Shown here piece by piece: positions 1-34,106 of a stretch of 64,000 nt of DNA. Made by a program: the position numbers and the translations under genes. Numbering within the stretch: the first letter of the stretch is position 1; every line of letters begins with the position of its first letter. Source of the stretch: Asterias amurensis. Lineage: Eukaryota; Echinodermata; Asteroidea; Forcipulatida; Asteriidae. The notes beneath the pieces were generated by a model. The model saw only the letters and a list, made by a program, of their open reading frames with translations. It made no database searches and had not been told where the DNA came from. The stretch is taken from contig NC_092665.1 in NCBI RefSeq assembly GCF_032118995.1, positions 4,810,001 to 4,874,000 on the forward strand, read 5' to 3'.

Positions 1-412
1 AGCACCTCTGGACTAAACATGGGTAACCAGCACTAACAAGGGGTGAATGACTTTTTAAAAAGTGCATTTTTAGAAGCTCTTTCAGAGTGTATCTTTTTGG
101 TGCTGCTGCATAATACTGTTCTCCAAATTAAGTATAAAGTGTCAGTATTGACTGTCGACCCGGTTAGCAGCATTAGTAATATTTAAAGCACAGTCGGTTT
201 AACAGTAACAGCATGATCTAAAAATGGGGGGAACATTATTGTTTACCGCCTCATCCCATCTCACAAGGAATAATTTATTTGAATAAGGAAAACGTTACAT
301 TTAAAACCTCTATCTGTGTAACCATGGAGGTAGAAATTAAAAACTAACCTCCTAAGTTGTAACCTTCTCAAAGGTGTCAATCCCGATGAGGAGAGCAAAC
401 AAAAGCTAGCAG

Positions 413-613
413 ATGTGTTTTTGTTCTCACAAAAACAATGTAAAGATGGCAGGAGTAGAAAACGCCTTCAAGCTTATCATTGCAGCTGCTGAGGGTGATC
501 AGCAGACAAGTCAATGTTATGTTATGTGTCCAATACATGAAGTCCAATTTCCCTCCTGGCACTGCTGTGCGTCTACTACTAGAACACCTTTATGTATGAA
601 AAGTGAAGATTGA
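413..613 (+). other. Unassigned open frame, mirrored at 24742-24942
   Basis: A 66-codon open frame is present in both arms with the same translation. I recognise no domain, and both strands are open over the same stretch. It is listed only because the reader may ask what 1-1190 holds; otherwise I see no gene, RNA or clear element there. Confidence 0.1.
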
Positions 614-1194
614 AAAATATTACTTACAGGCTTGTAAATTTAAGTTATGTTTGTAAACAAAACCAAAGACATACCATCACAAATATAACATAAATTGCAT
701 TTTTTAATCTACTTGGCATACAGCAGCTTGCCATGCTTAGGCCACATACAAAAAATTGTTGATCATCCCGCCCGAGCGATCAAAACTCCCCGACCCCAAT
801 TTTGTTTTTTTCACCATAAAAAAACCCAGCCTTTTTTCAAAATGTACAGGTTTCAAAAGATGTTTTACGAAAGTTTTTATTCATGTTGGCAAAGTAAGAA
901 CAATTCTTCAAATATTTACTTGGGCTACACAGTGTTTAGTTGTTTGAAAAATATTACAAAAAATGTCATCTAGGAGTTAAATTTGTTTGACAAAACTATT
1001 GAAAACATCAAAAACACACAAACCCTGTTTTATAGTGATTGTGATGATTTCTTTATTCTTGATTTCATATTTGGCATGTTAACAAAACTTAATTAGAATT
1101 TTTTTCTTCAACCTCCCTTCCTCCCCCCTCCCCCATCCTCAAGAAAAAAGTGACTACATGTATCAACAATTTTTTTTGTATGTGGCCTTAGGTG

Positions 1195-1310
1195 AAAAAA
1201 AGGAGTGGACACACTCAGCTGGGATGGGATTTAAACCAAAAACCCTGAACCTTTTTCTTCAAGTAGCACTTGGCAAACTGACTAAGGCATGTGGCTGTTT
1301 CTAATTTCTA
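1195..1310 (-). repeat. Possible tRNA-derived SINE fragment (left arm)
   Basis: Read on the minus strand, this stretch has a tRNA-like D-arm region (CCTTAGTCAGTTTGCCAAG) and a B-box-like GGTTTAAATCCC. It is weak and lacks a recognisable 3' tail. The mirrored copy is near 24055-24165. Confidence 0.3.
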
Positions 1311-1683
1311 AGTTGTAACACCTGTATTGAGAAGTGTAAATACATGGTACACTTTGATAATTCTTACAGCCACATAACAAAACATGGTGTGCATGTAAAA
1401 AGACCCCATAATTATATAATTAGTGAACTCCCTTACCTGTCATCAGGTGGACATGCAATTTTGACAAAATTGCACGAAGCTTTATCACTCTTAGTGAATT
1501 AATGTGGGACATCCATTTTTGCCTGATCCATACCATCGAATATGATGACAGACAGGTCCTACTGCTGTCTCCTTGCTCCTGTATGGTACTCCCCCTACGC
1601 TCCTTCCTAAAAAAAAATATATATAACATATATCTTTGACTTGCCCAATTTTGCATGTAAAAACCATTCACTTTGTGAAGGAA

Positions 1684-2080
1684 TATTAATGACACTGGAC
1701 ACTAATTAGTATTAATCAAAGACCAGTCTTCTCACTTGGTGTATGTTTTTGAACAGATGCCTAATAAAATAACAAACCTGTGTAAATTTGAGCTCAATTG
1801 GTCGCCGAAGTTGCGAGACAATGAAAGAAAAAACACCCTTGTTACACGAAGTTGTGTGTATTCAGAAACTTGATTTCGAGACGTCAAATAATATAAATCT
1901 GAGGTCTTGAAATCAAATTCATGGAAGACTACTTCTTTCTCTAAAATTACGTTACTTCAGAGGGAGCCGTTTCTCACAATGTTTTATACTATCAACCTCT
2001 CCCCATTACTCGTCACCAAGTGAGGTTTTTCTGCTAATAATTATTTTGAGTAATTACCAACAGAGTCTACTGCCTTTAAA
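1684..2080 (-). mobile_element. TTAA-family MITE, left-arm copy
   Basis: About 400 bp, ending in CTACTGCCTTTAA and beginning ATTAATGACACTGGACAC, the mutually inverted ends of a family seen at least eight times in this window. Internal hallmarks are GAGCTCAATTGGTCG, GAGGGAGCCGTTTCTCACA and CTCCCCATTACTCG. It has no coding capacity. The TTAA target and short inverted ends fit piggyBac or Kolobok derivatives, but no transposase is present to decide. Confidence 0.8.
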
Positions 2081-2759
2081 TGGGGTCAAAAAACCTATAT
2101 CATTATCATATTGAGGTTTGTGTTGACTATTAAAGTAAAACATAGTGTCTCTGATAATTTCATCATGGCAGAAGAATTAAAAACAATGTTCTAACTCCAC
2201 TGCAAGATTGTGATTTCCCATCTCATTAGTTTGTTTGACCTCAACCTCTGTCATTAATTAGTAGTATTGTAGGGTCATTTTTTATCGTCCCTCATCATGT
2301 TTTCGAACCCCAGCTTCGATTCTCTTTACATGCCTTAATACCATGTGAGACTGTGAAAGCTCCACTGGTGACAGAAACTTTGCAGTTTACTCACGGGAGT
2401 CACGGTCTGTATTTTTTTCAGGCTTAATCATCCTAAGAATAATGTTTTTTGTCATAGGTTTAATTATGCTCACACAGTAAAATGATGAATTTTTGGTATA
2501 AATTACTAGTGCATTATTATGCCAACAATCAAATACTAGGTCCTGAATATTCAATATTAAAATAAACTAACTAACTCTCTCAACGTAAAACCAAAACTTT
2601 TAAGAATCAACACACAATTAATAGTTGATTTCAAAAAAGATCATTCAATTTTAGATTGTGAACAATTTTCCTGTTTATCTACTACACTACAGTAGGCCGT
2701 CAGGCCGTAGTATACAAATATTGACTGCGTTGAGTGGCATAGTAAAACTAGTCACTCGA

Positions 2760-2811
2760 GGTGATCCCCGGAGCAGCCGATGAGGGAAGATAGGCTGCTC
2801 CGGGGATCACC
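2760..2811. repeat. Perfect 19-bp-arm hairpin, left arm
   Basis: Arms at 2760-2778 and 2793-2811 are perfect reverse complements (GGTGATCCCCGGAGCAGCC) around a 14-base loop. GC-rich in an AT-rich setting. Conserved in the right arm near 21229-21280. It may be the tip of a foldback element or an RNA hairpin; function unknown. Confidence 0.85.
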
Positions 2812-2853
2812 GAGAGCAGTCAAAGCAGACAAAGCAGTAAATAATTGTTTGTT

Positions 2854-3463
2854 TTATAACACCCCTTGCTTTGATTATATCTGTATATCTTAATAAAAAT
2901 TAATTCACACAACACTTTTATTCATGTGATCCACTATCGCCAACGTTGTGTTGCGTACAGAACAGTACTGTTGAACAATTCTTTCTTTGAATCTGCTGAG
3001 TCTATAAAATCTCGTAATTCATCTTCAGTAAGTAAAACAAATCGCGGACGGGCCTCATTGTCCTCCATTTTCCTGGTAGAATCGTCAAAAAACTTTACAT
3101 ACGTCGCGCACAATCAATCGTCAAACAAGAACTGTAAAATCTTACGTTGAAACACCAAGTTTTGACAAAATAAGAGAGTACCAGACTAGTGCTGTTACGT
3201 TCGTTCTCTAAATCGTATTTAAAATGCACATTATGTTGTACATTAGGTTGTCAAGCAGCTCGTTTAAATCAATGGTAGTCAAATGTAGTCTGGGTACCAG
3301 GGTATCCATGCACTAGTACATCGGTTGCTAGGCTGTCGTTGAATAGTCCATTGAGTAGTTACTTTGGTCGGTGAACATGTACAAGAGTACGTAAAAATAC
3401 ACAACATGATGTGACACGCTCTCGGCCAATCAACAGTTAGAATCAAAGGAAGGGGTGTTATAA
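2854..3463 (-). mobile_element. TIR element with 'TTATAACACCCCTT' ends, left arm
   Basis: Ends are TTATAACACCCCTT at 2854 and AAGGGGTGTTATAA at 3450-3463; the similarity extends inward through TTTGATTNTATCTGT. It is about 610 bp and non-autonomous. It contains a short minus-strand open frame described separately. The right-arm copy lies at about 20577-21187. Confidence 0.6.
2934..3068 (-). CDS. 44-residue remnant resembling the N-terminus of DUF3504/Crypton-like proteins
   Basis: Minus-strand ATG at 3068, TAG at 2934-2936. The peptide starts MEDNEARPRFVLLTEDELRD and continues FIDSADSKKE. The pattern (P)RFV-L-EDEL-FI-ADS-K resembles the start of the DUF3504 or Crypton-type tyrosine recombinase proteins that are abundant in invertebrate genomes. 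The catalytic part is absent, so this is at most a captured or decayed first exon. In the right-arm copy (about 20971-21105) a TAA replaces the Glu codon after LLT, so that copy is interrupted. The family call is from memory of the motif and is tentative. Confidence 0.35.
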   Translation of the reverse strand: MEDNEARPRFVLLTEDELRDFIDSADSKKELFNSTVLYATQRWR

Positions 3464-4156
3464 TAATTAATATTACAATTATTATAATTAATTATTAATA
3501 AGTAAATAAAGTAGGCCTATCTTATCTAGTTCTACCAAACGAAAAAGTGAAATGCAAGGAACACTGACTCTGCTCTGTCCAACCATGGAGGAATTCCTCC
3601 ATCCTTGGTCCCACACTAAACACTATTATTAGTATTACAGGCATGACAGGCGGCCTGTACGCTACTACTAGTACTAGTGTACCTACCTCCCACCAGCCAC
3701 ACTGGTCATGCTGGGTCAGGCTGGGCCATGGCGCTGTCGCCGTCAATGTCAGCCTCGAGAAATATCTGCATGCATCGCATTCGCATGTTAATATACAAGA
3801 TGAAATCCAACTCCGTTGCTAATTAGTCCACCACCGGCACGTGGCGTAGGGCTCGATCACAAACACAAAACCAGCAGGATAGCCCGGGGCAACCAGCAAT
3901 AAGCTGGTGATTTTTGCGCCGATGATCACAACATTTCTTCCTCCACCGATTTTAAACTATAACTTTATAAGTACATCGCATGCATCGCATATAAACGCAC
4001 AACCGTTAACCACGCACAGCCGTTAACCACGCACTGAACATACTTATACACAGTACATGTTTATTGTACATTATTATGGACCGACTCGAGAAACGCCATC
4101 ACGTAGTCAAGTGATTTTCATCACGTGGTCAAGTGATTTTCAACTATTGAAACTAT

Positions 4157-4158
<2 letters not shown>

Positions 4159-4200
<42 letters not shown>
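4159..4200 (+). repeat. Poly(A) tract of about 42 A
   Basis: An uninterrupted A-run sits where the right arm instead has about 350 bases of unique-looking sequence between a T-rich tract (17096-17125) and 17455. Either the left arm lost this block or the right arm gained it; the A-run may be a retroposon tail or an assembly weak point. Confidence 0.8.
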
Positions 4201-4201
<1 letters not shown>

Positions 4202-5641
4202 ATAATAAGTACTACATGTACATAACAAATCAACAGTGGTGCTTTTGTATGCATTCTAAAGGAGTCTTGATTCCATGTTAAAAAAAAAAAAACTGTCCAG
4301 AAATCTCATGTTTGAATCTGCCGGCCGCACTCGCGTGCTCATCAACGTTTACCTGTCCCTTAAAACTCAGAAAATAATCGGAAGCATGCAAAACTCATTT
4401 CCATTGTTCTGTTATAATTAAATTAAAAACATGTAGGGCCTATTGTTATCGATTGAGGCCTAGGCTACCGTTTTTGTAGTTCCCAATTTTCTCACCGTTT
4501 GAGTGGTCATACCTTTTAAAGCCATTGGACCCTTTTTTCGGTACAGACAAAAAAAAAAGTTCACAGATTTACAAATAATTTACAGGGTTTACAGAAGGTA
4601 ATGGTGAAAGACTTCTCTTGAAATATTAGTCCATGAAATGCTTTACTTTTTGAGAAAACGGTAAAACAATATAAATTCTCGTTAACGAGAATTACGGATT
4701 TGTTATAAACACATGTCATGACACGGCGAAACGCGCGAAAACAGGAGTGGGTTTTCCCGTTATTTTCTCCCGACTCCGATGTCCGATTGAGCCTAAATTT
4801 CCACAGGATTGTTATTTTATATATAAGTTGTGATACACGAAGTGTGGGACTTGGACAATACTGTTTACCGAAAGTGTATAATGGCTTTAATATTATTATC
4901 AACAGAATTCGGGTAAGATTTCAAAAATTGACGAACAGAACTCGCTAAAGTGCTTATTACAGGAACAATTATCAGTCGGTATGGTCGGACACACCCAATT
5001 AAAAATCAGGAAAGGTCAGCGCCCCAATTGGAATCTATCTGGTAGAATTCGATGTACTCTACTAGAGCTCTACGTTTCAGGCACAATAAGTTGAGTGCCA
5101 ACCACACTGTTGCGTCGCTATCGAAGGTAAGCTCATCCCATTTTCACATCCCAGATGCTCTTTGTTGATAGGTTGCTGGATCATAATTTTGTAAGCACCA
5201 TAATAGGTTTTGAATTGTATTTATATATACAAAAAATATTGGATTAATAAAGTTTGAATTGGGGGGGGGGGTCAGTTTTCGGCATTGAAAGTGGTATCTA
5301 TCTGCGCGTGTGGACTGTCACTTACTACATTTATATTTATAGTAACACTGGTCATTCTTCAGATGTGGATGGCTGGATGTCAGCACCAACCATGGAGCTA
5401 AATCTGTAAAACTTCATTGTGAACTGTGTATGTATTAATGGACAAAATTGCCGCGCGTATTTTGTCTAAGAATGTTGTATAACAAGCTGTGTGATAAGCA
5501 AAGATCGTAGACGCTGATAAGAGATTTCCAGCATGTGCGCGATGCGTGGCATCATAACGCATGGCAAAAATGGCCAATGTGTGTGGGTGTGTGTGTGTGC
5601 TACATATACATGTCTTGGTGTTTTAATACCCGTGGTTGTTG

Positions 5642-8047
5642 TAGTCTTGGTTCCAAGACCATTGGTGTTGCGCGGTCACACACAACCAACGTTCCGATTA
5701 TGCACGGCAAAAACTGTCCACGCTTGTAATGAACGAACGCTAGCGGGCGCTCTGTTTCTCTGATTTAGATCTCACCATGGTCTTGAATATTTGCAACGAT
5801 GGGTCTTAACTTTTTTATTGTTTTTCGGCAAATCTCCCCCGACTTTCCGGTGGAGCCAATCAGAGGCTGCGTTGCGGTTGGCTCATGAATAATTCATCAG
5901 TGTTGTGCATGTAGTGTACAATGCATGCAGTAATTCCGTTGCATGACTTTTGCTTTACTCTGTGTGTGGGTATATATGTTTTTATCAGAGTATAATAATG
6001 TCCAGATCAGTAGGATTTGGAACTTTGACACATGGTGGAAATACGATAAAGAAAGGTTTGTGGTACCAGCACAAACATTTCTATGTATAATGTCCAGATC
6101 CAGACTACTGCATTGCCATGATATGCAGCTTGAAATGCGATCGTGGCATATGCTCCCGACGTGCCAGGGCCCACACTGATGAAGCCTGTATTGGCTAAAC
6201 AATTTGCTTATAGTTAGCACAAAATAGTATTGCTTAGCAGAAACTGGTTGCCAGCCAATTTTTAATTAAATTTGAAATTTTGTAGTGCCCAAGTAAATTT
6301 TTGGATAGTAAAGAAATTTTGTACAGTATTTTCTGCCAAATAACTGGTGGGCCCTGTAGTGTTATTCACAGTGAAAGTTTTTTAATCTTGGGGGAAGGAA
6401 ATCTTGAGGGATTCAAAAGCGTCTTTGTGAGAACGTATTTTGAAACGTAACCGTAGCTGCATATCTTGGAACGTAAGCGTAGCTTGACTCGGGATTGAAA
6501 GCGTACTTTTTGATATTGTAGCGTAACCTTATAGTTTCTTGGAGTGTATAAGCGTAGCTGAGTAGCTGCGTAGCTTGGAACGTAACAGTATCTTTTGGTG
6601 GAGCGTAAGCATATCTTGGAACGTAATTCGTAGCTGCGTATCTTGGAACGTAAGCGTAACTTGACATGGGATTGAAAGCGTACCTTTTGATATTATAGCG
6701 TAACTTGAAGGATGTAAGCAGATCTGTAAGCGCAGCTGAGTAGCTGTGTAGCTTGGAACGTTGACATCTTTTGGAATGTAAGCATATCTTGGACTGAAGC
6801 GTAGCATCTTGGAACATAAACGCAGCTGCGTGTCTTTGAACGTAGGCATAGCTTGACTCGGGCTTGAAAGCGTACCTTTTGATATTATAGTGTAACTTGA
6901 AGGAACGTAGACCTAAGCGTATCTTGGAACGTAAACGTAGCCGAGTAGCTGCGTAGCTTCGAACGTAACCATATAACATTTTTTGGAATGTAGATGTAGT
7001 CGTAACAATATCTTTTGGAATAACTCATGAGAAATTTCGAATTTTGATTGCTTGTCCAGCGGCGACTACTGCTATTCAACTCCCAGTTATTTGAGGCGAA
7101 TAGTCGGGTCATTAAATTCCACTAGTTGCCCAGTTTAATCATTACCTCAAAAATAACTCTTCATTCACAGAATTAAAAAATAATACTTTGTTTGACAAAA
7201 TTATGCTTTGAGGGAATTTTGTTTTAGCATTATTTTTATTTAAACCTTTTATAAAAAATTCTCATACTTTTTTGAAGCTACTCACACAATAACACTGTCA
7301 ATATAACAAAATGCGATATTCCTACGTTTTGACATCATCAAAATTACCTGAAAACTCATAACAAAAAGAAATTAGGGGGCCATGAAACAAAATGGAGCAT
7401 ATTGGAACGTTGCGATCATAAGAAACAACGGATTCGACACCCGCAAGCTGGGAGTTCATAGCGCCTGGGATTTAACACCTCCAACCCCCACGAGACACGG
7501 CATGGGCGGTACGTGATACTCCACAAGGCTTATTTCACGTTCCGATTGCTCCACGCCGTGGGGCCATACAGCGTCCGATACACGGACTCTCTGAATGCTA
7601 ATTTTACGTTCGATTTTTGACCATTATTTACGATTTCAAATCGTCACGTATCCATAATCTGAATAAGTACCTATACTTAAAATTTCACTGTTTTCCTTTT
7701 AATAGGCCTATAATGACCACGGAATCACTCTTTGAGCAAAGATTATTAAAAATAGACCGCCGATCATATTGACCTTTGACTCGATCTAGTTTGAATAGTC
7801 ATCTTCAATTCGTCACGTGATATGAATATTGCATACATTAAAAGTAATTTACATAGTCTGGCCACGCCTTCAATTTGCAAATATCCAAGACTATTGTGAG
7901 CACAGGACATGGTGAGATCCGTAAATCAGAGAAACAGAGCGCCCGCTAGCGTTCGTTCATAACAAGCGTGAACAGTTTTTGCCGTGCATTATCGGAACGT
8001 TGGTTGTGTGTGACCGCGCAACACCAATGGTCTTGGAACCAAGACTA
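5642..8047. mobile_element. Element B: 2.4-kb TIR transposon, 9-bp target duplication
   Basis: Terminal inverted repeats of about 150 bp (5642-5790 and 7900-8047) begin TAGTCTTGGTTCCAAGAC and are nearly identical, so the insertion is young. It is flanked by TGGTTGTTG at 5633-5641 and 8048-8056; the right arm has the empty site with one copy. A 9-bp duplication and long TIRs are typical of Mutator-like elements, but no transposase is seen, so this is probably non-autonomous. Inside are a degenerate tandem array (6413-7010) and AT-rich filler. Its first 12 bases match element A, so A and B are likely mobilised by the same enzyme. Confidence 0.85.
6413..7010 (-). repeat. Degenerate tandem array inside element B
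   Basis: Short motifs (GAACGTAAGCGTAGCTT, GTAGCTGCGTAGCTTGGAA) recur, with a longer period: the block GGGATTGAAAGCGTACC is found near 6490, 6669 and 6860, spacings of about 180-190 bp. A 188-codon minus-strand frame stays open through it, but its repetitive peptide (YNIKRYAF, SYAYVPRYAAT) is a by-product of the repeats. Confidence 0.75.
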
Positions 8048-8424
8048 TGGTTGTTGTTGCATGGAGCTCCTACAGAGCTAGTCTTGGCCCAAGACGATGG
8101 TGCTTGATTCTGGATAGTATACCACGCGCGATTGAATCGCCAAAGCGCGCCCGCCACGGTATGATTTAGTTACGTGGACGGCTCGAAATCTAGACTACAC
8201 TCTGCAAGCTACCATCGTCTTGGCAATCCTGCAGCGCTGTGTTAACTTTTTCATTGTTTTCTTCTATAGCTTTCTGTAGAACCAATCAGCGTGCGATCGT
8301 TGTAATAAATTAACATAATGTATTAGTTGACCCCGGGGTCATTCATGTTATGATTACACGGCATTGGCAGTTCAATGTTTGTCGTGGAGGAAAAATCGTA
8401 AGAAAATAGGAAATATTCACGATT

Positions 8425-8634
8425 ATGAATGCTAAAGATGAACAAGTGAGCCGAAGCTATATTGATCTGCTATCTAGATGGCAATTAATGAACGACTATG
8501 TCACAATATACCAGCTAGTGCCCTCTCTGCGGACGGTCTGGTTTTGCGATAAACTCCGCCAGTTCTCGTGTGCTTCGTCTGCTGCATGCAGGCAGCAGTT
8601 GGACCATGGAGGTAGGATGTCCGGGTGTGAATAA
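8425..8634 (+). CDS. Unidentified 5' open frame of element A1
   Basis: A 69-codon frame starting MNAKDEQVSRSYIDLLSRW. A GTAGGAT that could be a splice donor lies at 8612 within it, so the true coding exon may end there. It is nearly identical in A2 (12354-12569), with the reading frame kept despite base changes. I recognise no family. It could be the first exon of the element's own protein or of a captured gene. Confidence 0.35.
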   Translation: MNAKDEQVSRSYIDLLSRWQLMNDYVTIYQLVPSLRTVWFCDKLRQFSCASSAACRQQLDHGGRMSGCE

Positions 8635-9681
8635 ACTATAGGGAACTAGAGCATGATACCACATACGACCAACGTTTGCAACTGAGCAAGTCATGGATCC
8701 CAAGTCATTATGTAACTGTCAGTGTCACAAAGTGGTGAGTGGAGAGAATCTTGTTTATATTGATCGAATCTGTATAGAATTAGAAAACGTAAAGTCATAC
8801 ATTTGTAAGTAGTTATTGTTTGTCATGTTTGAATACTTCAAAACTTGTTGTTATTCATGTAGGTAGACCTCCTTCCTGCTAAATAGCAGTGCTATTTCAT
8901 CATGCGAAGCACAATTTTCTTGTGTCTCACTTATGGAAGGGCAGCTCGTAAAAGTATTGCCTCACCAAAATCCACTTCGCATTCGCATTCGAAGGAAGTA
9001 TGAGCCTACTCCTTGGTTTTGTTTCGGTTTGGAACGAACATAGCCCAGCTTTATGTGAGATTGGAATTGTCTGACTCGAGTCACCAACACTTCAATGCAC
9101 ACAGATACATATCCCTCGATTTGAAAATGGCTCATTGGCTGACATTTTTTTTTTAACTTACATTTTTCTTCTGTGCACAAGCAATTAACACTTGTTTGCA
9201 ATTGCTATAGTTGGGTTGATTGATGATCGTAACCCTCGCTGGTCAACGGTTTAATATTAATAATCAAAACAGATATACATTTTACATTAAGCTTGATGCA
9301 GAACAAGTTTAGCACAATGAGACCCAATATAATCACTGAACTTATTCTATGATTTGTATTTGTTTCATTCTTCTGATAGGGCACATTTCCAGGAGAGGAG
9401 TCTGCTTTTAGAGAACTGCTGCATGCCCACCTTGGGAGTACTGATACTTTTTAGGCCTCGTCTTGTCAGATGAATGGGTAGTCGACTGCTCTGCAATTAA
9501 GGAATGGAGTTCTTGATTCAAGAGAGACAAATCTGTGACAGAATCAAGATTCAAGCGTATATAATTGTGGAAGAGATATTTTGCTGTTTTGCAGAGGAAG
9601 TCTCAAGAGAAAAGGAAAAGATGGAACATCATATTAACTGTCAATCAAGAAAGACGTATGTGAAGAACTGTACTCTACATT

Positions 9682-9995
9682 TTGCTGCAAAGTTCCACCA
9701 CTGTATCACAATTTATTGTCGACATGTATCATACCATACCAATACAGAGATTGACTTTCAAGACGAGTTTACATAGCTTTTTCAACACTGGGGGAACTGT
9801 GTGCATACTCTTAGCAACCGATGCTTTTGGACTGGGGTTGATGTTTGTCATTATTTTGAACACCAAGATGAAAATGTACAACTAAGTGGAAGAGTTGGGC
9901 GAGATGAGCAACATGGTCTTTCAACTGCCTATCTAAGACACAGAGAATCAGATAAAAACTGCATTGCACCCCACAATGTAGAAGAGTGGTCGTAG
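9682..9995 (+). pseudogene. RecQ-like SF2 helicase C-terminal fragments in element A1
   Basis: Frame 1 (from 9682) reads VDMYHT and then CILLATDAFGLG (9805-9837), matching helicase motif V of RecQ-type enzymes (ATxAFGLG). The next frame (from about 9832) reads GVDVCHYF and then QLSGRVGRDE (9879-9908), matching motif VI (QxxGRxGRD), followed by HGLSTAYLRHRESDKNC. The two parts are in adjacent frames, offset by one base at the G-run near 9830, and A2 shows the same offset, so the break predates duplication of the copies. Walker A and B motifs are not visible upstream. Either the element once encoded a helicase or it captured a host gene fragment, as Pack-MULEs do. Confidence 0.7.
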
Positions 9996-10313
9996 GCTCA
10001 GCCGCTCACACAAGTACATAGTACAAACAGTATTGTGTATAACTGCTGTGATACCTGTGCACTTTAAATGCTGCTGTGGGAAAGCCTGTGATTGGCGACT
10101 AGTGGTACGCACTACGATTGATGTCGAAATCGCAACTAGTTATTGCTTAGTCGAGTTGCGACTGCCATTATTCACCTACTCTGTAAATCGAGCCACCACA
10201 ACAACTTAAATAGTTGCGACTATTCCTGCTTGCTGAAAAAATTGTGTCCCTCACAGTCACGACTTTTCATGACAACATAATTTACCTATGAAACACAACC
10301 AGACATCAGTAAG

Positions 10314-10665
10314 CCTGGGCCACTAGTGTAAGTTACTACTCGACTAGTCACACCTCAAAAAGTCATGACTACGACACTAGTCACGACTTGTTTGCCGCAG
10401 GGGCAATATGGTAAATTTCGTGCTTAGAGGATTGAAGGATTGTCACTGGTGTCACTGACTGTGTTTCGTAAAGAAATTATGTTGCCATGAATAGTCGTGA
10501 GCGATACAATAGACAGTTCACCATACAGGAAGTTGTTACTATTTTTGTAGTACACGATTATTCAATTAGGAATTAAAAAAAGTAGTCGCAACACGACTAG
10601 TGATTTTAATAATCTCGACTGTGCGACAAGTTTGACACTGTGTCGCACTAGTCACCCAGCCCTAG
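10314..10665. mobile_element. Possible hAT-like MITE nested in element A1
   Basis: Starts CCTGGGCCACTAGTG and ends CACTAGTCACCCAGCCCTAG. The ends are imperfect inverted repeats, and the CAGCCCTA-type end is common in hAT derivatives. Its surroundings are rich in ACTAGTC and GTTGCGACT motifs. It is also present in A2, so it was inside the ancestral element. No target duplication could be established. Confidence 0.35.
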
Positions 10666-14250: not shown

Positions 14251-14602
14251 CCTGGGCCACTTGTGTAAGTTACTACTCAACTAGTCACACCTCAAAAAGT
14301 CATGACTACGACACTAGTCATGACTTGTTTGCCGCAGGGGCAATATGGTAAATTTCGTGCTTAGAGGATTGAAGGATTGTCACTGGTGTCACTGACTGTG
14401 TTTCGTAAGTAAATTATGTTGCCATGAATAGTCGTGAGCGATACAATAGACAGTTCACCAAACAGGAAGTTGTTACTATTTTTGGAGTACACGATTATTC
14501 AATTAGGAATTAAAAAAAGTAGTCGCAACACGACTTGTGATTTTAATAATCTCGACTGTGCGACAAGTTTGACACTGTGTCGCACTAGTCGCCCAGCCCT
14601 AG
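14251..14602. mobile_element. Possible hAT-like MITE nested in element A2
   Basis: Counterpart of 10314-10665, with a few substitutions (for example CACTTGTG for CACTAGTG). Same caveats on family and boundaries. Confidence 0.35.
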
Positions 14603-15439
14603 ACATAAAGTGACACAATCCTTAAATCCTTTCAGCGTGAGTTTTACTCTATTGCACCTGCAGCAAATAATACGTCGCAATGCATTTTGGGGCATGAAAA
14701 ATGACTAGTGTGTTGAAGTTGCGACTATTTGAGGCACGAATAGTTGAGAAGCAAATTTCACTAGTCGCTCAGGCTTTAATTGTGGGGTATCGTTGTTATA
14801 GCCTGTTTACAAACCTGATCATTTTAATAGCCACTGTTCTATGAAGAGTTTGTGTTTGGCAATAAAGAAAGAAATCAATTTTATGAACAAGTAATTTGTG
14901 TTGGCCTTTATTTAGAAATAATTTGAATTAAACTGTATCAATTGTTTTAAGACACAATACATCATTGTTAATTATAACGTACTGACTATTAGGTATTCAT
15001 GTGATTGTGACACAATTAGTAGCCCTAAAGTTTAATACATGTGCAAAGTCATATAAGTCGATGCCTCAGAACGACAATAAATTGTACTTGTACAGTGAAT
15101 AGTGTTTGCTGTAGTAAAACTACTATATACGGTAGTATCATGGAGGTTTCTACCTCCATGTGAGTATAATCATGTAGGTACCTCCATGGTGTAATATATG
15201 CACTGAGGGTAGTTCGTCTGTCTGTGGTTCATGTGATCTGCCCACGACAAATCATTCGGGAAGTATAAAACCATAAAACAAACACGACACGTAACGAAGC
15301 ATTTTGTTACTTAATTCCTCCTTAGTCAGTTTTCTCTCAGACATTCTGTAGTCAGCTATTCTTCAGAATAACGACAATAATTATTAATTGGTTTTCTGGG
15401 AAAAGGGGATGTAGAATTTAAATCCCTGCATTGCGTTCG

Positions 15440-15475
15440 TTAAGAATGGCCATGGAGGAATTCCTCCATGGTATG
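15440..15475. repeat. A2-specific palindromic insert with CCATGGAGG motif
   Basis: A2 carries an insert containing a 22-bp perfect palindrome (CCATGGAGG arms around a central GAATTC-type core) where A1 reads straight through (around 11500-11510). The same palindrome occurs at about 3583-3602 and 18020-18043 in the arms. Confidence 0.7.
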
Positions 15476-17095
15476 GCTAGGCAAACCATATTATAGTATC
15501 ACTCGTTCGTCCCGTACGTCCGACCGTGGCCCGACTTCATTTCATGCTGCTGGGCGCTGCCATGTTGTTCACATGTTGAATATGCATTACACAACCTCGA
15601 CAACGGCATTATTAACATAATACGGCAACGCCCACAGTGCACGCAGCGCTGCATGATTGCCAAGACGATGGTAGCTTGCAGAGTGTAGTCTAGATTTCGA
15701 GCCGTCCACGTAACTAAATCATACCGTGGCGGGCGCGCTTTGGCGATTCAACCGCGCGTAGTACACTATCCAGAATCAAGCACCATCGTCTTGGGCCAAG
15801 ACTACTTATCACACAGCTTGTTATACAACATTCTTAGACAAAATACGCGCGGCAATTTTGTCCATTAATACATACACAGTTCACAATGAAGTTTTACAGA
15901 TTTAGCTCCATGGTTGGTGCTGACATCCAGCCATCCACATCTGAAGAATGACCAGTGTTACTATAAATGTAGTAAGTGACAGTCCACACGCGCAGATAGA
16001 TACCACTTTCAATGCCGAAAACTGACCCCCCGCCCCAATTCAAACTTTATTAATCCAATATTTTTTGTATATATAAATACAATTCAAAACCTATTATGGT
16101 GCTTACAAAATTATGATCCAGCAACCTATCAACAAAGAGCATTTGGGATGTGAAAATGGGATGAGCTTACCTTCGATAGCGACGCAACAGTGTGGTTGGC
16201 ACTCAACTTATTGTGCCTGAAACGTAGAGCTCTAGTAGAGTACATCGAATTCTACCAGATAGATTCTAATTGGGGCGCTGACCTTTCCTGATTTTTAATT
16301 GGGTGTGTCCGACCATACCGACTGATAATTGTTCCTGCAATAAGCACTTTAGCGAGTTCTGTTCGTCAATTTTTGAAATCTTACCCGAATTCTGTTGATA
16401 ATAATATTAAAGCCATTATACACTTTCGGTAAACAGTATTGTCCAAGTCCCACACTTCGTGTATCACAACTTATATATAAAATAACAATCCTGTGGAAAT
16501 TTAGGCTCAATCGGACATCGGAGTCGGGAGAAAATAACGGGAAAACCCACTCATGTTTTCGCGCGTTTCGCCGTGTCATGACATGTGTTTATAACAAATC
16601 CGTAATTCTCGTTAACGAGAATTTATATTGTTTTACCGTTTTCTCAAAAAGTAAAGCATTTCATGGACTAATATTTCAAGAGAAGTCTTTCACCATTGCC
16701 TTCTGTAAACCCTGTAAATTATTTGTAAATCTGTGAACTTTTTTTTTTTGTCTGTACCGAAAAAAGGGTCCAATGGCTTTAAAAGGTATGACCACTCAAA
16801 CGGTGAGAAAATTGGGAACTACAAAAACGGTAGCCTAGGCCTCAATCGATAACAATAGGCCCTACATGTTTTTAATTTAATTATAACAGAACAATGGAAA
16901 TGAGTTTTGCATGCTTCCGATTATTTTCTGAGTTTTAAGGGACAGGTAAACGTTGATGAGCACGCGAGTGCGGCCGGCAGATTCAAACATGAGATTTCTG
17001 GACAGTTTTTTTTTTTCACATGGAATCAAGACTCCTTTAGAATGCATAGAAAAGCACCACTGTTGATTTGTTATGTACATGTAGTACTTATTATG

Positions 17096-17455
17096 TTTTT
17101 TTTTTTTTGTTGTTGTTTTTTTTAAGCTGCCTGCGCAGTCATCCAAATCATCCAAAAAAACATACGAGTTTCAACTGCTACTCTGTCAGTTACTAGTTAA
17201 AAATTAAATAAGATAGGCTAGGGAAACAAGTATAGTACTAGTTGTAATGAATACCATTTTAAATAGTATTATTATAGTGTATTAATATAATTATATTTTG
17301 GTATTATCATGATATTCAATTTTCATAATAGTTATTATTTTATTAAAAATTGTTTATTTACAGGCAAATTGAAGAAGAATTGATCGAACACCATGTCAAT
17401 GGCCACATTAATTTTGTTTGGATCAGCTTATAGTTAATTGTTATATACTTATAGG
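17096..17455. other. Right-arm-specific block of about 350 bp
   Basis: Begins in a T-rich and GTT-rich tract and ends before ATACTTATAGG. The left arm replaces it with a 42-A tract. No TIR, target duplication or coding content recognised. Confidence 0.6.
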
Positions 17456-18157
17456 TTCAATAGTTGAAAATCACTTGACCACGTGATGAAAATCACTTGA
17501 CCACGTGATGGCGTTTCTCGAGTCGGTCCATAATAATGTACAATAAACATGTACTGTGTATAAGTATGTACATCATGTACATGTATGTTCAGTGCGGGTT
17601 AACGGCTGTGCGTGGTTAACGGTTGTGCGTTTATATGCGATGCATGCGACGTACTTATAAAGTTATAGTTTAAAATCGGTGGAGGAAGAAATGTTGTGAT
17701 CATCGGCGCAAAAATCACCAGCTTATTGCTGGTTGCCCCGGGCTATCCTGCTGGTTTTGTGTTTGTGATCGAGCCCTACGCCACGTGCCGGTGGTGGACT
17801 AATTAGCAACGGAGTTGGATTTCATCTTGTATATTAACATGCGAATGCGATGCATGCAGATATTTCTCGAGGCTGACATTGACGGCGACAGCGCCATGGC
17901 GCAGCCTGACCCAGCATGACCAGTGTGGCTGGTGGGAGGTAGGTACACTAGTACTAGTAGTAGCGTACAGGCCGCCTGTCATGCCTGTAATACTAATAAT
18001 AGTGTTTAGTGTGGGACCAAGGATGGAGGAATTCCTCCATGGTTGGACAGAGCAGAGTCAGTGTTCCTTGCATTTCACTTTTTCGTTTGGTAGAACTAGA
18101 TAAGATAGGCCTACTTTATTTACTTATTAATAATTAATTATAATAATTGTAATATTA

Positions 18158-20476
18158 ACTAGAGATTGAGAGTTTGTGAACAAACTCAAGGTGTTCGGTT
18201 TCCGGGAGTAAAAGCCTGGATTAAAAAACAAATATTACACCTTGCTTTGTTCTCAAGATTTGTAATAAATGATTCAAATTACAAAAACTGTCAAAACCAC
18301 ATGATTACGTCATCTAGTCAAAGTGTATGTTTGGTGACGTCATCGGTAATATTTGTTTTAAACCAGACCTTTGCCAGACTTGTATGGGGTGATGGTAAAG
18401 CATCAAAGGATGTTTATTTCGACCTAAAAGACAATAAACCACGCCCTTTCAAATCATTTCACAGTCACTTCCCGTTTAAACAGGTCAAAAGGTCAACGAA
18501 AGTTCACCAACATATCCATTTCTGTCAAGTACGTAAAGCCCTTTCATATGATGTACAGATTGTCAAAATAGCTTATGTAGTTTAGGAAATATGAACTTAG
18601 GAAATATTGACTGACGACTGAAGAAAAGACTGTAAGGGGCATGTATGTTTTAACCGCCTTGAACGAAGACTATTCTTCATGAAGCTTTTTCGCGCTCTAT
18701 TGATAATATTTTTAAAAAGTAAAAAAAAAAAAAAGTGGATCAAAAATAATGATTTTTTGAAATAATAATTTGAATTTTTATTACTCAAGAATGGATAACG
18801 TCATCATGACCTAACTAACACATTATTCCACTCCTAATGCATATCTAACTATGTGCGAAGTTTCAAGTTCATACGAGTTTGGGAAGTGTGCTTTTGTTCG
18901 AGGACAAGGGACGAAGAGAAGAAGAAGATGAAAATCTGGATTGTTTTATTGATTTGTTTGTACTAAAGTTTTGTTTAATCCGGCAGTTTATTTTAGCAAG
19001 ACTACTCCTAATTGCTTGGGCCTTATGCTTTAACCATTCTGTTTTCTTTGAATGTTTTGTATTGTAACATCCATGTCTGTGCATGGAGGTAGAAATAGAT
19101 TAGTTTACGTAACGTCCTTTCCTACTAGAGAAAGTTTGAAAGGGCTTATGTTATTTCAGAGATTTTTTTTCTTCAAAATATTTAACTCAAAATAACTTGG
19201 ATAGTTGTTTTAACAAATAATCAAAACAATTGATGATTATGTTAAGTTCAAGAAGTAATAGATATCGTAATACTGACGTGAATTCCGTGGGCCCAAAACG
19301 CCCTTCACCCGGGGGGTGTGGTCGATCGATGTAACGTCTCTATTCTTCTCGGTGTTTAACCAAAACATGACCAATGTTCGTCATTTTGTACTGTTGTTTT
19401 TCTCAAATAATTAAAAGTCCCATGAATCACTGAAGTAGGTGGCCATCTCAGCGAAACTTCGTCTTCAATTCCACATTGACCACTAAGCCATCAGAAGGGT
19501 AACATTTGAACAATTTGACGCTGAAGATTGAAATGAAATCGTTTTCGCAGCGTTCTGCATAGCTATTATAGCTCTATGCATATCACGCTATGGCACAGAG
19601 TACAACAAACTTGGCAGCATGCCACCAAATAAATTATGCCTAATACGCTACACGTGTACGCCACAAGTGTTACGCACAACCAATGGGGAAATTTCGTAGT
19701 TCTTTATACAAGAAATTGTGAACTTTCAAACTCGATTTTGAACCAGAAGACGAGCTCAAAATGGGATCACGTCTGCGAGGCATTTACGGAGTTTTAAACG
19801 AACTTTCCGATGATGTGTCGATTGTAACAACCCATCATGTAGATCAAAAGTTATGATTTTTTGAAATAATAAACTTTGAAAATTCATAACTCAAGAATTG
19901 ATGACGTCATCGTGACATAACTCAAACTGTTTCTTCTCCTTATACATATCTAACTATGTGTGAAGTTTCAACTTTTTATGTGCTTGGGAAGTGTGATTTT
20001 TTTAGCGGACAATCGCCGCTAATAAGCAGAATGGATGATAACTGGAGCGTGCTCTGCTGCACCGCTAATACACTACACGTTGTGTGTATGCCTACGTGCA
20101 ATGTTTATGCACATACCAATGGGAATTTACGTTGTTCTTTTGACGTGAATTTTGAAATTTTCAACCTCTCTTTTGAGCCGGAAGACAACATCAAAATGGG
20201 GTCATGTCTGTGGGGCGTTTACGGAGTTTTCAATGACGATTCCGATGATGTTTCGATTGTAAAAATCCCTCATGTAGATCAAAAGTTATGATTTTTTGAG
20301 TTAATAAACTTTGAATATTCATAACTCAAGAATTGATGACGTCATCATGACGTAACTCACGCGGTTTCTTCTCCTAATAAACATCTAACTATGTGTGAAG
20401 TTTCAAGTTCATACGATGTTTGGAAAGATGTTTTTGTAGGGGGACAAGGGACGTACAGAAGAAGAAGAAGAAGAAG

Positions 20477-20508
<32 letters not shown>

Positions 20509-20570
20509 TCAATAAAAAAAAAAAAAACGAACAAAAATAAGAGGTGTTCCGGGCTGTTGGCCCGAACACC
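18158..20570. mobile_element. Composite right-arm insertion with TA duplication
   Basis: Absent from the left arm near 3463-3470. The junctions give TA at 18156-18157 and 20571-20572. AGGTGTTCGG appears near the left end (about 18189), and the right end is a hairpin (arms AGGTGTTC and GAACACCT around CGGGC/GCCCG) at 20542-20570. Inside, a module is repeated about three times (near 18795-18910, 19870-19990, 20325-20450): ATTGATGACGTCATC, CTAACTATGTG, GAAGTTTCAAGTTC, GGACAAGGGACG. It ends in a GAA microsatellite. The 139-codon frame at 18166-18585 has no recognised domain. It could be a Helitron-like or TA-targeting non-autonomous element, perhaps nested; family undecided. Confidence 0.6.
20459..20506 (+). 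repeat. (GAA)n microsatellite, about 15 units
   Basis: Uninterrupted GAA repeat directly after the GGACAAGGGACG module of the composite insertion. Each module seems to end in a GAAGAAG-type tail (also near 18913-18930), so the tract is probably expanded from the element's own terminus. Confidence 0.9.
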
Positions 20571-20576
20571 TAATTA

Positions 20577-21187
20577 TTATAACACCCCTTCCTTTGATTC
20601 TATCTGTTGATTGGCCGAGAGCGTGTCACATCATGTTGTGTATTTTTACGTACTCTTGTACATGTTCACCGACCAAAGTAACTACTCAATGGACTATTCA
20701 ACGACAGCCTAGCAACCGATGTACTAGTGTATGGATACCCTGGTACCCAGACTACATTTGACTACCATTGATTTAAACGAGCTGCTTGACAACCTAATGT
20801 ACAACATAATGTGCATTTTAAATACGATTTAGAGAACGAACGTAACAGCACTAGTCTGGTACTCTCTTATTTTGTCAAAACTTGGTGTTTCAACGTAAGA
20901 TTTTACAGTTCTTGTTTGACGATTGATTGTGCGCGACGTATGTAAAGTTTTTTGACGATTCTACCAGGAAAATGGAGGACAATGAGGCCCGTCCGCGATT
21001 TGTTTTACTTACTTAAGATGAATTACGAGATTTTATAGACTCAGCAGATTCAAAGAAAGAATTGTTCAACAGTACTGTTCTGTACGCAACACAACGTTGG
21101 CGATAGTGGATCACATGAATAAAGGTGTTGTGTGAATTAAATTTTATTAAGATATACAGATATAATCAAAGCAAGGGGTGTTATAAA
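20577..21187 (+). mobile_element. TIR element with 'TTATAACACCCCTT' ends, right arm
   Basis: Mirror of 2854-3463. The embedded open frame (from 20971) is interrupted by TAA after LLT, unlike the left copy, so the arms have diverged here by a coding-visible change. Confidence 0.6.
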
Positions 21188-21228
21188 ACAAACAATTATT
21201 TACTGCTTTGTCTGCTTTGACTGCTCTC

Positions 21229-21280
21229 GGTGATCCCCGGAGCAGCCTATCTTCCCTCATCGGCTGCTCCGGGGATCACC
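21229..21280. repeat. Perfect 19-bp-arm hairpin, right arm
   Basis: Mirror of 2760-2811; both stems are fully conserved between arms although neighbouring bases differ. Confidence 0.85.
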
Positions 21281-21940
21281 TCGAGTGACTAGTTTTACTA
21301 TGCCACTCAACGCAGTCAATATTTGTATACTACGGCCTGACGGCCTACTGTAGTGTAGTAGATAAACAGGAAAATTGTTCACAATCTAAAACTGAATGAT
21401 CTTTTTTGAAATCAACTATTAATTGTGTGTTGATTCTTAAAAGAGTTAGTTAGTTTATTTTAATATTGAATATTCAGGACCTAGTATTTGATTGTTGGCA
21501 TAATAATGCACTAGTAATTTATACCAAAAATTCATCATTTTACTGTGTGAGCATAATTAAACCTATGACAAGAAACATTATTCTTAGGATGATTAAGCCT
21601 GAAAAAAATACAGACCGTGACTCCCGTGAGTAAACTGCAAAGTTTCTGTCACCAGTGGAGCTTTCACAGTCTCACATGGTATTAAGGCATGTAAGGAGAA
21701 TCGAAGCTGGGGTTCGAAAACATGATGAGGGACGATAAAAAATGACCTTACAATACTACTAATTAAGTACAGAGGTTGAGGTCAAACAAACTAATGAGAT
21801 GGGAAATCACAATCTTGCAGTGGAGTTAGAACATTGTTTTTAATTCTTCTGCCATGATGAAATTATCAGAGACACTATGTTTTACTTTAATAGTCAACAC
21901 AAACCTCAATATGATAATGATATAGGTTTTTTGACCCCAT

Positions 21941-23670
21941 TTAAAGGCAGTAGACTCTGTTGGTAATTACTCAAAATAATTATTAGCAGAAAAACCTCAC
22001 TTGGTGACGAGTAATGGGGAGAGGTTGATAGTGTGACGGACAGTGCCGGGTGTGTGTTATAAATGGTGTAGTTATGAGCATGCGCGAGCTTATGCACGAT
22101 CTGCGCATGCGTTGGCTTGCGGAGCACGCTGGTACTTCTGGGACCATGCGTGCATCGTCAGTCGGCAGCGAGCATTCAAGGAAGAAACAGGTACGTTCTT
22201 TTACTCTGATTATTACCCAAGTGTTATTTGTTGTGCAATCTGCGCTAGCGTGCGTGATTTATTGCAAGTTATATGCAGCGAATTCTAGGTCTCACTGATT
22301 AGCTGAAAGGCTTTGTGCTGTTGATCGTGAGAAATTCTGGGTGAGAGGATTGACGGAAGCTGAGTGTTTGTCGATCTTTTTGGGGTAGCAGTCCGTCGCT
22401 GAGTTAGCCAACGTTAGTTTTGTGGTTGACTAGCAGGATTGTGGTTCAGGGTATCTGTGTGAATGTCTCAGGGGGTACACGTGAGTTGAAGCAGGGAAGA
22501 CTGTGCTTTGTGCTAGTCCCCTTCTCCTCAAACGTGGCGGCTGCGGGACTCGTTTAGGTAATTGCTGGTGCTTTACCTAGGGTTGTCGATATAGCTGGGC
22601 TATATTGCGGTGTGGGTGATTGCTTTGTGCTTTACCTGCGGTGTGGGTGACTGCTGTTTTGCGGTTTACCTGCGTTGCGGTTGACTGCTGTTTTGTGGTT
22701 TACCGGCGGCGTGGTTGACGGTTTTTGTGCTTTATACCGGAGGTGTGGTTGGCACTGCTGCAGCGCGTGCTTGTTAACGCGTGGCGTTTTGACCTTTAGT
22801 TAGGAGGTTGACTAGGCGATTGCTGGTGCTGCTTAGGCGCGAGAATCACGGGTAATAGTTGAGTAGAACGTAGGTGTCTTTTGCAAGTAACTGGTACTTT
22901 ATTATTTAATGCTCTGTAGCTCTGTATTGGTCATTGATTGTGGTGGATACTGCAGAGGTTGACACTCAAACCACATTGACTGATGCTTGTTTCTCATAGT
23001 TATTGTTTACTGCAGAGGTTGACAATTAAACCACATTTTCTCATAGTTATTGTTTACTGGAGAGGTTGACAATTAAACCACATTTATTCACTGTTCATTG
23101 TTTACTTGAGAGGTTGACAATTAAACCACATCTATTGCTGTTTGTTCTTCATAAATCTCTTGTGGAACTGTGTATTATTTTGGGAACTGTGTGTGTCTTG
23201 ACAGAGAGGTTTGCCATCTTTTATAGTCGGGCGGTATATTTCCTCCCAAACGAACCTCGCCACTCAGCCTCAAGTCCGCTTAGTGACTTCAACTTGAGTC
23301 GGCAAGAGTCAGGGTCAAGTTGTATTTAAGCGCGGATCCGATAACGACCCGTGCCCGCCACAATAGTATAAAACATTGTGAGAAACGGCTCCCTCTGAAG
23401 TAACGTAATTTTAGAGAAAGAAGTAGTCTTCCATGAATTTGATTTCAAGACCTCAGATTTATATTATTTGACGTCTCGAAATCAAGTTTCTGAATACACA
23501 CAACTTCGTGTAACAAGGGTGTTTTTTCTTTCATTGTGTCGCAACTTCGGCGACCAATTGAGCTCAAATTTACACAGGTTTGTTATTTTATTAGGCATCT
23601 GTTCAAAAACATACACCAAGTGAGAAGACTGGTCTTTGATTAATACTAATTAGTGTCCAGTGTCATTAAT
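21941..23670 (+). mobile_element. TTAA-family MITE, right-arm copy, split by a solo LTR
   Basis: TTAAAGGCAGTAGACTCTGT at the left end and GTGTCCAGTGTCATTAAT at the right, mirror of 1684-2080. The solo LTR at 22032-23362 sits inside it. The uninterrupted left-arm copy gives the exact pre-insertion sequence. Confidence 0.85.
22032..23362 (+). mobile_element. Solo LTR, probably Ty3/Gypsy-like (fossil)
   Basis: A 1.33-kb block beginning TGTGACGGACAG and ending GTGCCCGCCACA, so it has the TG...CA ends and short inverted termini of an LTR. ATAG is duplicated at 22028-22031 and 23363-23366 (ATAGT if one shared base is counted). No internal retroviral-type domain is present, so it is a single LTR left by recombination. 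It contains three or four loosely tandem units with GAGGTTGACAATTAAACCAC (about 22950-23130). It is missing from the other arm, which makes it younger than the split between the arms. The Gypsy assignment rests only on end sequence and duplication length. Confidence 0.7.
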
Positions 23671-24054
23671 ATTCCTTCACAAAGTGAATGGTTTTTACAT
23701 GCAAAATTGGGCAAGTCAAAGATATATGTTATATATATTTTTTTTTAGGAAGGAGCGTAGGGGGAGTACCATACAGGAGCAAGGAGACAGCAGTAGGACC
23801 TGTCTGTCATCATATTCGATGGTATGGATCAGGCAAAAATGGATGTCCCACATTAATTCACTAAGAGTGATAAAGCTTCGTGCAATTTTGTCAAAATTGC
23901 ATGTCCACCTGATGACAGGTAAGGGAGTTCACTAATTATATAATTATGGGGTCTTTTTACATGCACACCATGTTTTGTTATGTGGCTGTAAGAATTATCA
24001 AAGTGTACCATGTATTTACACTTCTCAATACAGGTGTTACAACTTAGAAATTAG

Positions 24055-24165
24055 AAACAGCCACATGCCTTAGTCAGTTTGCCAAGTGCTACTTGAAGAA
24101 AAAGGTTCAGGGTTTTTGGTTTAAATCCCATCCCAGCTGAGTGTGTCCACTCCTTTTTTTCACCT
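24055..24165 (+). repeat. Possible tRNA-derived SINE fragment (right arm)
   Basis: Mirror copy of the minus-strand fragment at 1195-1310, with the same B-box-like GGTTTAAATCCC. It is part of the inverted repeat, so it is not an independent insertion. Confidence 0.3.
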
Positions 24166-25354
24166 AAGGCCACATACAAAAAAAATTGTTGATACATGTA
24201 GTCACATTTTTCTTGAGGATGGGGGAGGGGGGAGGAAGGGAGGTTGAAGAAAAAAATTCTAATTAAGTTTTGTTAACATGCCAAATATGAAATCAAGAAT
24301 AAAGAAATCATCACAATCACTATAAAACAGGGTTTGTGTGTTTTTGATGTTTTCAATAGTTTTGTCAAACAAATTTAACTCCTAGATGACATTTTTTGTA
24401 ATATTTTTCAAACAACTAAACACTGTGTAGCCCAAGTAAATATTTGAAGAATTGTTCTTACTTTGCCAACATGAATAAAAACTTTCGTAAAACATCTTTT
24501 GAAACCTGTACATTTTGAAAAAAGGCTGGGTTTTTTTATGATGAAAAAAACAAAATTGGGGTCGGGGAGTTTTGATCGCTCGGGCGGGATGATCAACAAT
24601 TTTTTTTATGTGGCCTAAGCATGGCAAGCTGCTGTATGCCAAGTAGATTAAAAAATGCAATTTATGTTATATTTGTGATGGTATGTCTTTGGTTTTGTTT
24701 ACAAACATAACTTAAATTTACAAGCCTGTAAGTAATATTTTTCAATCTTCACTTTTCATACATAAAGGTGTTCTAGTAGTAGACGCACAGCAGTGCCAGG
24801 AGGGAAATTGGACTTCATGTATTGGACACATAACATAACATTGACTTGTCTGCTGATCACCCTCAGCAGCTGCAATGATAAGCTTGAAGGCGTTTTCTAC
24901 TCCTGCCATCTTTACATTGTTTTTGTGAGAACAAAAACACATCTGCTAGCTTTTGTTTGCTCTCCTCATCGGGATTGACACCTTTGAGGAGGTTACAACT
25001 TAGGAGGTTAGTTTTTAATTTCTACCTCCATGGTTACACAGATAGAGGTTTTAAATGTAACGTTTTCCTTATTCAAATAAATTATTCCTTGTGAGATGGG
25101 ATGAGGCGGTAAACAATAATGTTCCCCCCATTTTTAGATCATGCTGATACTGTTAAACCGACTGTGCTTTAAATATTACTAATGCTGCTAACCGGGTCGA
25201 CAGTCAATCCTGACACTTTATACTTAATTTGGAGTACAGTAATATGCAGCAGCACCAAAAAGATACACTCTGAAAGAGCTTCTAAAAATGCACTTTTTAA
25301 AAAGTCATTCACCCCTTGTTAGTGCTGGTTACCCATGTTTAGTCCAGAGGTGCT

Positions 25355-27285: not shown

Positions 27286-27289
27286 AAAA

Positions 27290-32755: not shown

Positions 32756-32769
32756 TAAAATTAAATTGT

Positions 32770-33813: not shown

Positions 33814-33856
33814 ATAAATAAGTTCGTCTGGATTGTTGATGATCATGAAAAAAAAA

Positions 33857-34000: not shown

Positions 34001-34106
34001 TTATTTCAGATTCATTACCACTTTATATTCAAGTACATTCCTCCTATCTTCTATAACTACGCACCATGCTGTCTCTATGGTAATGTCAGCGCCTTGTGGC
34101 TCATGG

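Follow-up and report, generated by a model that had tools for sequence, protein, structure and literature searches.

How does a terminal inverted repeat (TIR) transposon come to stand at the exact centre of a giant palindrome, with mirror-image instead of directly repeated sequence on its two sides? The question is raised by a 64-kb stretch of the Asterias amurensis genome (C18:4810001-4874000, hereafter the window), in which such a palindrome has the transposon A1 at its apex (Table 1). The initial annotation had placed A1 exactly at the apex and described its flanks as inverted, and both points were borne out: the left flank CTACAGAGC and the right flank GCTCTGTAG agreed at 2/9 positions when compared directly and at 9/9 when one was inverted, and inverted identity held for 20/20 positions over 20 bp. 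Searches of the whole genome (23 contigs, 491.5 Mb) showed that the arms are one half of another transposon, here called M, and led us to a reading that we consider probable, in which the palindrome arose by gap repair that turned at an A1 TIR within an A1-bearing M and was then copied along C18.

The flanks of A1 depart from those of its own family. We compared the seven A-family copies with both ends, namely, A1, A2, C18:4973336, C18:4703290, L002, L006 and L007. (The genome copies fetched were L001 to L008 only; L003, L004 and L005, with no intact end, and L008, with one end only, were left out of the duplication count.) Direct flank matches were 9/9 in four of the six copies other than A1 (A2, C18:4973336, L002 and L007), 8/9 in L006 and 4/9 in C18:4703290, and inverted matches in these six reached only 0 to 2/9. 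Since the other copies mostly match directly and A1 matches at only 2/9, we conclude that the A family generates 9-bp direct repeats on insertion and that A1 is without one. The TIRs of A1 and the size of the duplication resemble those of Mutator/Foldback elements, and duplications of 9 to 10 bp are given for FB4 in PMC8277862. Among five A1/A2 frames scanned for a Mutator-like element (MULE) transposase, no Pfam match rose above the cut-off, and A1 is not classed as a MULE. A decayed frame in A1 (9777-9992) and in A2 (13708-13929) looks RecQ-type helicase-like by eye, with no supporting Pfam match.

The sequence without A1 can be read in other copies of the arm. Arm queries matched C14, C21, C15, C22, C8 and C10 as well as four C18 regions, so the arm is dispersed; this rules out a unique chromosomal flank, and the ordinary single-copy flank assumed in the initial annotation has to give way to one half of M, with M's arrays and ends as the outer limits. 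We compared ten stretches across the apex position, six from other chromosomes and four from C18. All six copies from other chromosomes that hold the site (6/6) continue past A1's point without A1, in the order P-CTACAGAGC-TGGTTG-R, where P denotes the half of M that forms the palindrome arms and R the other half. This empty-site sequence (...GGAGCTCCTACAGAGC-TGGTTG...) is at least 99.28% alike in the six copies for ∼830 bases beyond. In the C18 stretches (4/4), the A1 end follows directly after CTACAGAGC. An R query gave full matches in those six copies only in the genome search; seven C18 matches covered the arm part only, and another three, of which C8 has two and C2 one, were short or diverged. 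The six A1-free copies are thus the empty site at base resolution. Because they show P-CTACAGAGC-TGGTTG without A1, both flanks of A1 represent the P side of one insertion site, which is thus present twice, and the R side is missing. The comparison proposed earlier, with a single-copy arm holding A1 between two direct copies of its flank, was thus partly realized within the same genome: the A1-free form exists in six copies, and A1 with CTACAGAGC on both sides was not found.

These results bear on the order of events. Had the palindrome come first and A1 entered its centre later, perhaps as a preferred target, a direct 9-bp repeat would be expected around A1, and its absence leads us to reject insertion into a ready-made palindrome. 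The apex is, moreover, an ordinary internal point of M in the six empty sites. Late entry does have parallels at this locus, since A2 and the related element B arrived after the palindrome had formed, each in one arm only, but for A1 we regard it as scarcely credible. The flanks and the empty sites instead uphold the earlier view that A1 was present before or during palindrome formation and that its TIRs were the turning place.

M is a transposon in its own right. Queries reaching past the arrays stop abruptly at two ends, E2 (C18:4805487) and E1 (window position 31312), and the same ends recur in the dispersed copies. The TIR of M measures ∼37 bp, and E1 and E2 are 87% alike over a 38-bp alignment. 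All six complete copies outside C18 are bounded by 4-bp direct repeats (ATTC, CCCT, TTGT, CGTC, TATA and CAGA), as against none of the four C18 copies. With inverted ends and a duplication of fixed length, M is a TIR DNA transposon. A census of M ends found 68 sites, of which 28 were exact and the other 40, with one mismatch, were unused (a control pattern gave 34 matches in all). Twenty exact sites pair into ten two-ended copies, on C8, C10, C14, C15, C21 and C22 and four times on C18, and eight are single; by end positions, M spans 17.3 to 21.5 kb outside C18 and 26.9 to 35.8 kb on C18. Inverted arrays of a 69-bp unit stand beside both ends in the C14 copy and in a copy at 10.42 Mb of C10 (C10:10421423-10438695; both read), with the same junctions as in the window palindrome. 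The interior order E2-array'-R-site-P-array-E1 was found in five copies (C14, C15, C21, C22 and C8; arrays read at C14 only), and in the C10:10.42 copy the interior is flipped between its two inverted arrays.

A protein-family name was sought for both elements and had to be dropped, as Pfam returned nothing above its cut-offs for the five A1/A2 frames or for ten unspliced M frames (six from P, four from R) scanned for a transposase; the best subthreshold matches in M were KAP (0.0026) and HTH_23 (0.096). M is an unclassified TIR transposon, and we assign a superfamily to neither M nor A1. Two M copies, at C10:9.49 and 10.42 Mb, would lie inside the candidate sex region of A. amurensis, placed at 7 to 12 Mb of chromosome 10 in PMC11757944, if contig and chromosome numbers correspond. 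A sex-chromosome link of the palindrome itself was considered and set aside, as that published region is on chromosome 10 and not 18.

Within the window, self-comparison aligned the arms of the palindrome (here s1, at 4.82 Mb of C18) as positions 1-1992 with 25354-23363 (99.5% identity), 1988-3469 with 22032-20571, 3464-4169 with 18161-17438, 4173-5498 with 17123-15805 and, innermost, 5483-5642 with 12016-11856 and 8048-8078 with 11865-11835. Once the insertions B and A2 and three right-arm stretches are set aside, the arms reach both ends of A1 exactly; they begin exactly outside a pair of inverted repeats, the 164-bp TIRs of A1. On the left, the arm continues through the 69-bp array to C18:4806156. 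The ∼5.6 kb first estimated for each arm therefore falls short: the cleaned left arm comes to ∼9.5 kb, array included, and extends ∼3.8 kb to the left of the window. Outside the array and with gaps not counted, comparison of the arms shows 57 substitutions among 7,915 aligned bases (28/4,288 in the outer and 29/3,627 in the inner part); the 153 aligned inner bases adjoining the site of B show none.

An assembly or library artefact, either a fold-back read or misjoined repeat copies, could be suspected in a region so rich in duplications and for an element as repeated as M. The divergence of the arms, their arm-specific insertions and the absence of any N within C18:4680001-4984000 (304 kb) speak against a fold-back artefact. 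The same junction is also present on both arms at a second locus (s2, below), and the published assembly drew on HiFi library fragments of ∼15 kb, longer than A1, according to PMC10625585. We therefore consider an artefact very improbable.

The structure of s1 suggests how the palindrome could have been made. It reads E2-array'-P'-A1-P-array-E1, with no R half; from the A1 end to the array, the place of R is filled by the P half in inverted orientation. At each border of this inverted P, the other half offers inverted homology, through the A1 TIRs at the apex and through the arrays on the outer side, and the E2-array' and array-E1 junctions match those of the intact copies that were read. We propose that A1, as a TIR transposon that duplicates 9 bp, inserted at CTACAGAGC within a copy of M, and that repair of a gap on its R side then used the opposite half, in this M or in a sister element, as template. 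This template may have been chosen because both edges of the gap would have found an inverted homologue there, the A1 TIR (164 bp, 97%) inside and the array outside. The new strand would have turned round at the A1 TIR, which would be why the apex coincides with the ends of A1 to the base. The process would amount to synthesis-dependent strand annealing with TIR-to-TIR template switching or, equivalently, to ectopic conversion between inverted halves. All this would have happened once. Copies of the palindrome and its left flank would then have reached four C18 sites, right flanks being exchanged and A1 being flipped along the way. The earlier description of a transposon-seeded inverted duplication is in essence retained, with the amendment that the duplication is located inside the transposon M, between two sets of inverted homology.

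An unequal crossover in the A1 TIR between two A1-bearing M copies of opposite interiors, whether on sister or homologous chromosomes or at different loci, would yield the same product as gap repair, P'-A1-P, together with R-A1-R'. Both orientations of the M interior do exist, five copies one way and the C10:10.42 copy flipped, and a crossover between different loci would also account for the mismatched outer flanks of s1, AACCAACAAT on the left versus AGTAACAAAGG on the right, without a 4-bp duplication. It would, however, require A1 at the same base in two opposite copies, and no nonpalindromic A1-bearing copy was found; nor was the reciprocal R palindrome, R being present only in the six A1-free copies. 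The reciprocal flank junctions were likewise not found: the genome search gave none for E1 with the D right flank, and for E2 with the left flank of the long interspersed element (LINE), it gave two sites with 3 mismatches (C12 and C18:13.8 Mb) versus four control matches, which we take as chance. The derived insertion common to both s1 arms (below) would be allowed only if both parents had carried it. We favor gap repair, which needs one A1-bearing M where the crossover needs two, and judge the crossover unlikely, though a rival to be taken seriously.

The palindrome is not the only one of its kind; there are four related palindromes on C18, s1 and three others at 5.80 to 5.81 (s2), 5.92 (s3) and 7.00 Mb (s4). 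A genome-wide search for the A1/arm junction that allowed 3 mismatches returned six occurrences, all on C18 and without mismatch, on both arms at s1 and s2 and on the right arm only at s3 and s4. In s2 to s4, A1 shows a common break near positions 119 to 129 and an orientation reversed relative to s1. The left junction of AACCAACAAT with AACAGTATTGG is common to all four, and the right flanks are AGTAAC (s1 and s2), TATAAC (s3) and AATTAA (s4), none of which yields a 4-bp duplication. In an outer slice of the arms (27020-27420), which was picked for having the most left/right differences and is thus biased, the left arms of s1 to s4 cluster (1 to 4 differences), as do the right arms of s1, s2 and s4 (5 to 7 differences), and the right arm of s3 is of the left type (2 to 5 differences from left arms, 10 to 11 from right arms). 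Since the left flank is common, the left arms group together and the right arm of s3 is left-type, the four loci probably go back to one palindrome that was copied along C18 and whose copies later exchanged sequence through their arms and arrays. Separately, we observed that the 337-bp left flank of M is repeated many times on C18, from ∼4.77 to 7.27 Mb.

The occurrence of the palindromic form at four loci, each of which has both M ends, and the three kinds of right flank might also suggest that this form is itself mobile and reached its four sites by transposition. Transposition would alter the left flank, though, and that flank is identical in all four, with no 4-bp target duplication; the one common left flank disfavors movement of the palindromic unit, to which we accord hardly any probability.

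The relatedness of the arms gives a mixed picture. Both arms of s1 carry a ∼370-bp dispersed repeat at the same place, which the six intact M copies lack, the flanking parts adjoining there; the left and right arms of s2 and the right arm of s3 match through it. This common mark fits arms copied from each other, with later loss or exchange at s4, and later arm-to-arm conversion would also account for it. Near the apex (query part 686-1442), similarity to the left arm is 99% for the right arm of s4 and 96 to 97% for the six copies on other chromosomes.

Several observations weigh against gap repair. No A1-filled nonpalindromic M, the intermediate bearing A1 and R, was found in the genome, and we therefore infer that intermediate. 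From the missing M duplication on C18, it follows that other loci took part in exchange, something that a purely local event would not require. The right arm of s4 is without the common ∼370-bp insertion, that of s2 is only 95% alike over the whole query, and over query part 1-319 the C18 and other copies hardly differ (98 to 99%). In the biased outer slice, which does not unite the two arms, left and right arms are no nearer to each other (8 to 12 differences) than to C10:9.49 or C14 (4 to 10 differences; C10:10.42, with 9 to 18 differences in ∼320 bases that stem partly from an end that does not align, was omitted from these ranges); in summed bits over 25300-27640, the right arm is nearer to C10:9.49 (4126) than to the left arm (4085). 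In this slice, it is possible that the arms derive from two M copies. Only the first three array units stay in register, and no clear conversion border is seen. The crossover stays alive because of the absent intermediate, the slice and bit scores, s4, the lack of an array border and the missing duplication.

Table 1. Positions of the palindrome s1 and associated features within the window
Feature	Position	Strand	Remark
Left arm of palindrome: P half of M, inverted, carrying B	1..8078	-	Continues ∼3.8 kb beyond the window
∼370-bp dispersed repeat in left arm	4516..4890		Same place in right arm, 16407-16782; 373/376 aligned columns identical
B, TIR transposon related to A family, TIR ∼139 bp, ends TAGTCTTGG; left arm only	5642..8047		9-bp direct duplication TGGTTGTTG
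A1 left flank CTACAGAGC	8070..8078	+	Same 9 bp precede TGGTTG (R) in six A1-free M copies
A1, TIR transposon, 3,756 bp, 164-bp TIRs (159/164 alike)	8079..11834	+	Palindrome apex
A1 right flank GCTCTGTAG	11835..11843	+	Reverse complement of left flank
Right arm of palindrome: P half of M, carrying later insertions and 69-bp array	11835..30897	+	
A2, second A-family copy, 95% like A1; right arm only	12009..15804	+	Direct 9-bp duplication CTTATCACA
Right-arm-only stretch, ∼0.3 kb	17124..17437		Left arm has A run at this place
Right-arm-only stretch, 2.4 kb	18162..20570		
Right-arm-only stretch, 1.33 kb	22033..23362		ATAGT on flanks
69-bp tandem array, ∼47 copies, beside M end E1	27652..30897	+	Inverted counterpart beside E2
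M end E1, TIR ∼37 bp	31276..31312	+	Right flank LINE-like, without 4-bp duplication of M

The surroundings of s1 hold further duplications and frames. A ∼17-kb direct duplication brackets the palindrome (C18:4787658-4804590 and window 32767-49510), its pieces being ∼89 to 97% alike, and a 7.6-kb tandem duplication, 99.8% alike, lies to the left of the window at C18:4733085-4748275. By eye, a frame at window 31289-31960 resembles the end of a LINE reverse transcriptase; it has no Pfam match, and related copies lie on many chromosomes. At window 45838-46677, there is a C1q-domain gene with a collagen stretch (Pfam C1q, 1.3e-21).

Among described processes, the closest is the TIR extension of Galileo in Drosophila, in which internal sequence beside one TIR appears inverted beside the other (TIR1-F1-F1-TIR2) through conversion or recombination of the inverted ends and in which changes of the TIRs also involve tandem repeats located in the ends (PMC3573991). 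At s1, internal sequence is likewise inverted beside both ends, and unextended copies, the six with R, exist. Here, however, the mirrored part is ∼8 kb long, a whole half of the element; on the inner side it stops at a nested transposon from a different family, which contributes the homology with its TIRs, and the empty-site copies allow the change to be followed to the base. Mechanistically, the closest process is the yeast fold-back at spaced inverted repeats, where the repeats anneal in cis, the strand folds back and an inverted duplication forms whose apex is the segment between the repeats, the same layout as here; in single-stranded DNA, instability was similar whether 12 bp or 30 kb separated the repeats (PMC10164571). 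The yeast events lead to dicentric chromosomes and loss, whereas s1 is a local inverted duplication that retains both M ends and has sequence on either side, so that neither terminal loss nor a dicentric origin is seen; s1 may resemble them only in its way of working. In an atypical Ds case in Arabidopsis, a 598-bp inverted repeat abuts the transposon end, between element and target half-site, as here (PMC1978519), but the inverted DNA came from the donor T-DNA and not from the neighboring half of the host element with a second homology at its outer end. Gap-filling and FoSTeST models in animals also have TIR elements duplicating DNA through gap repair or template switching (PMC8277862); these models concern non-transposon sequence captured between TIR elements, whereas here the flank outside a nested element is mirrored. 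Among the open-access matches listed, none described a nested-transposon palindrome by title or abstract start, which is no proof of absence. As far as this literature search shows, what is new is the size of the mirrored part, the role of a nested element as turning point and the survival of empty sites.

The origin of giant palindromes and inverted duplications is often lost. Here a putative founder still stands at the apex, and the lost half can be read in six copies. With both homology borders identified as well, the seeding of germ-line palindromes by inverted transposon ends becomes testable in an animal genome, and the locus outlines a concrete path by which a transposon could gain very long inverted repeats. 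We suggest, tentatively and as a doubtful generalization, that nested TIR transposons may be a general engine of giant palindromes, the TIRs of the guest serving as turning point and the subterminal arrays of the host as landing point. If so, wherever a guest inserts into an element that has inverted subterminal arrays, a single repair event would be enough to turn the host into a mirror-image derivative, and such a derivative could be multiplied along with the surrounding chromosome segment.

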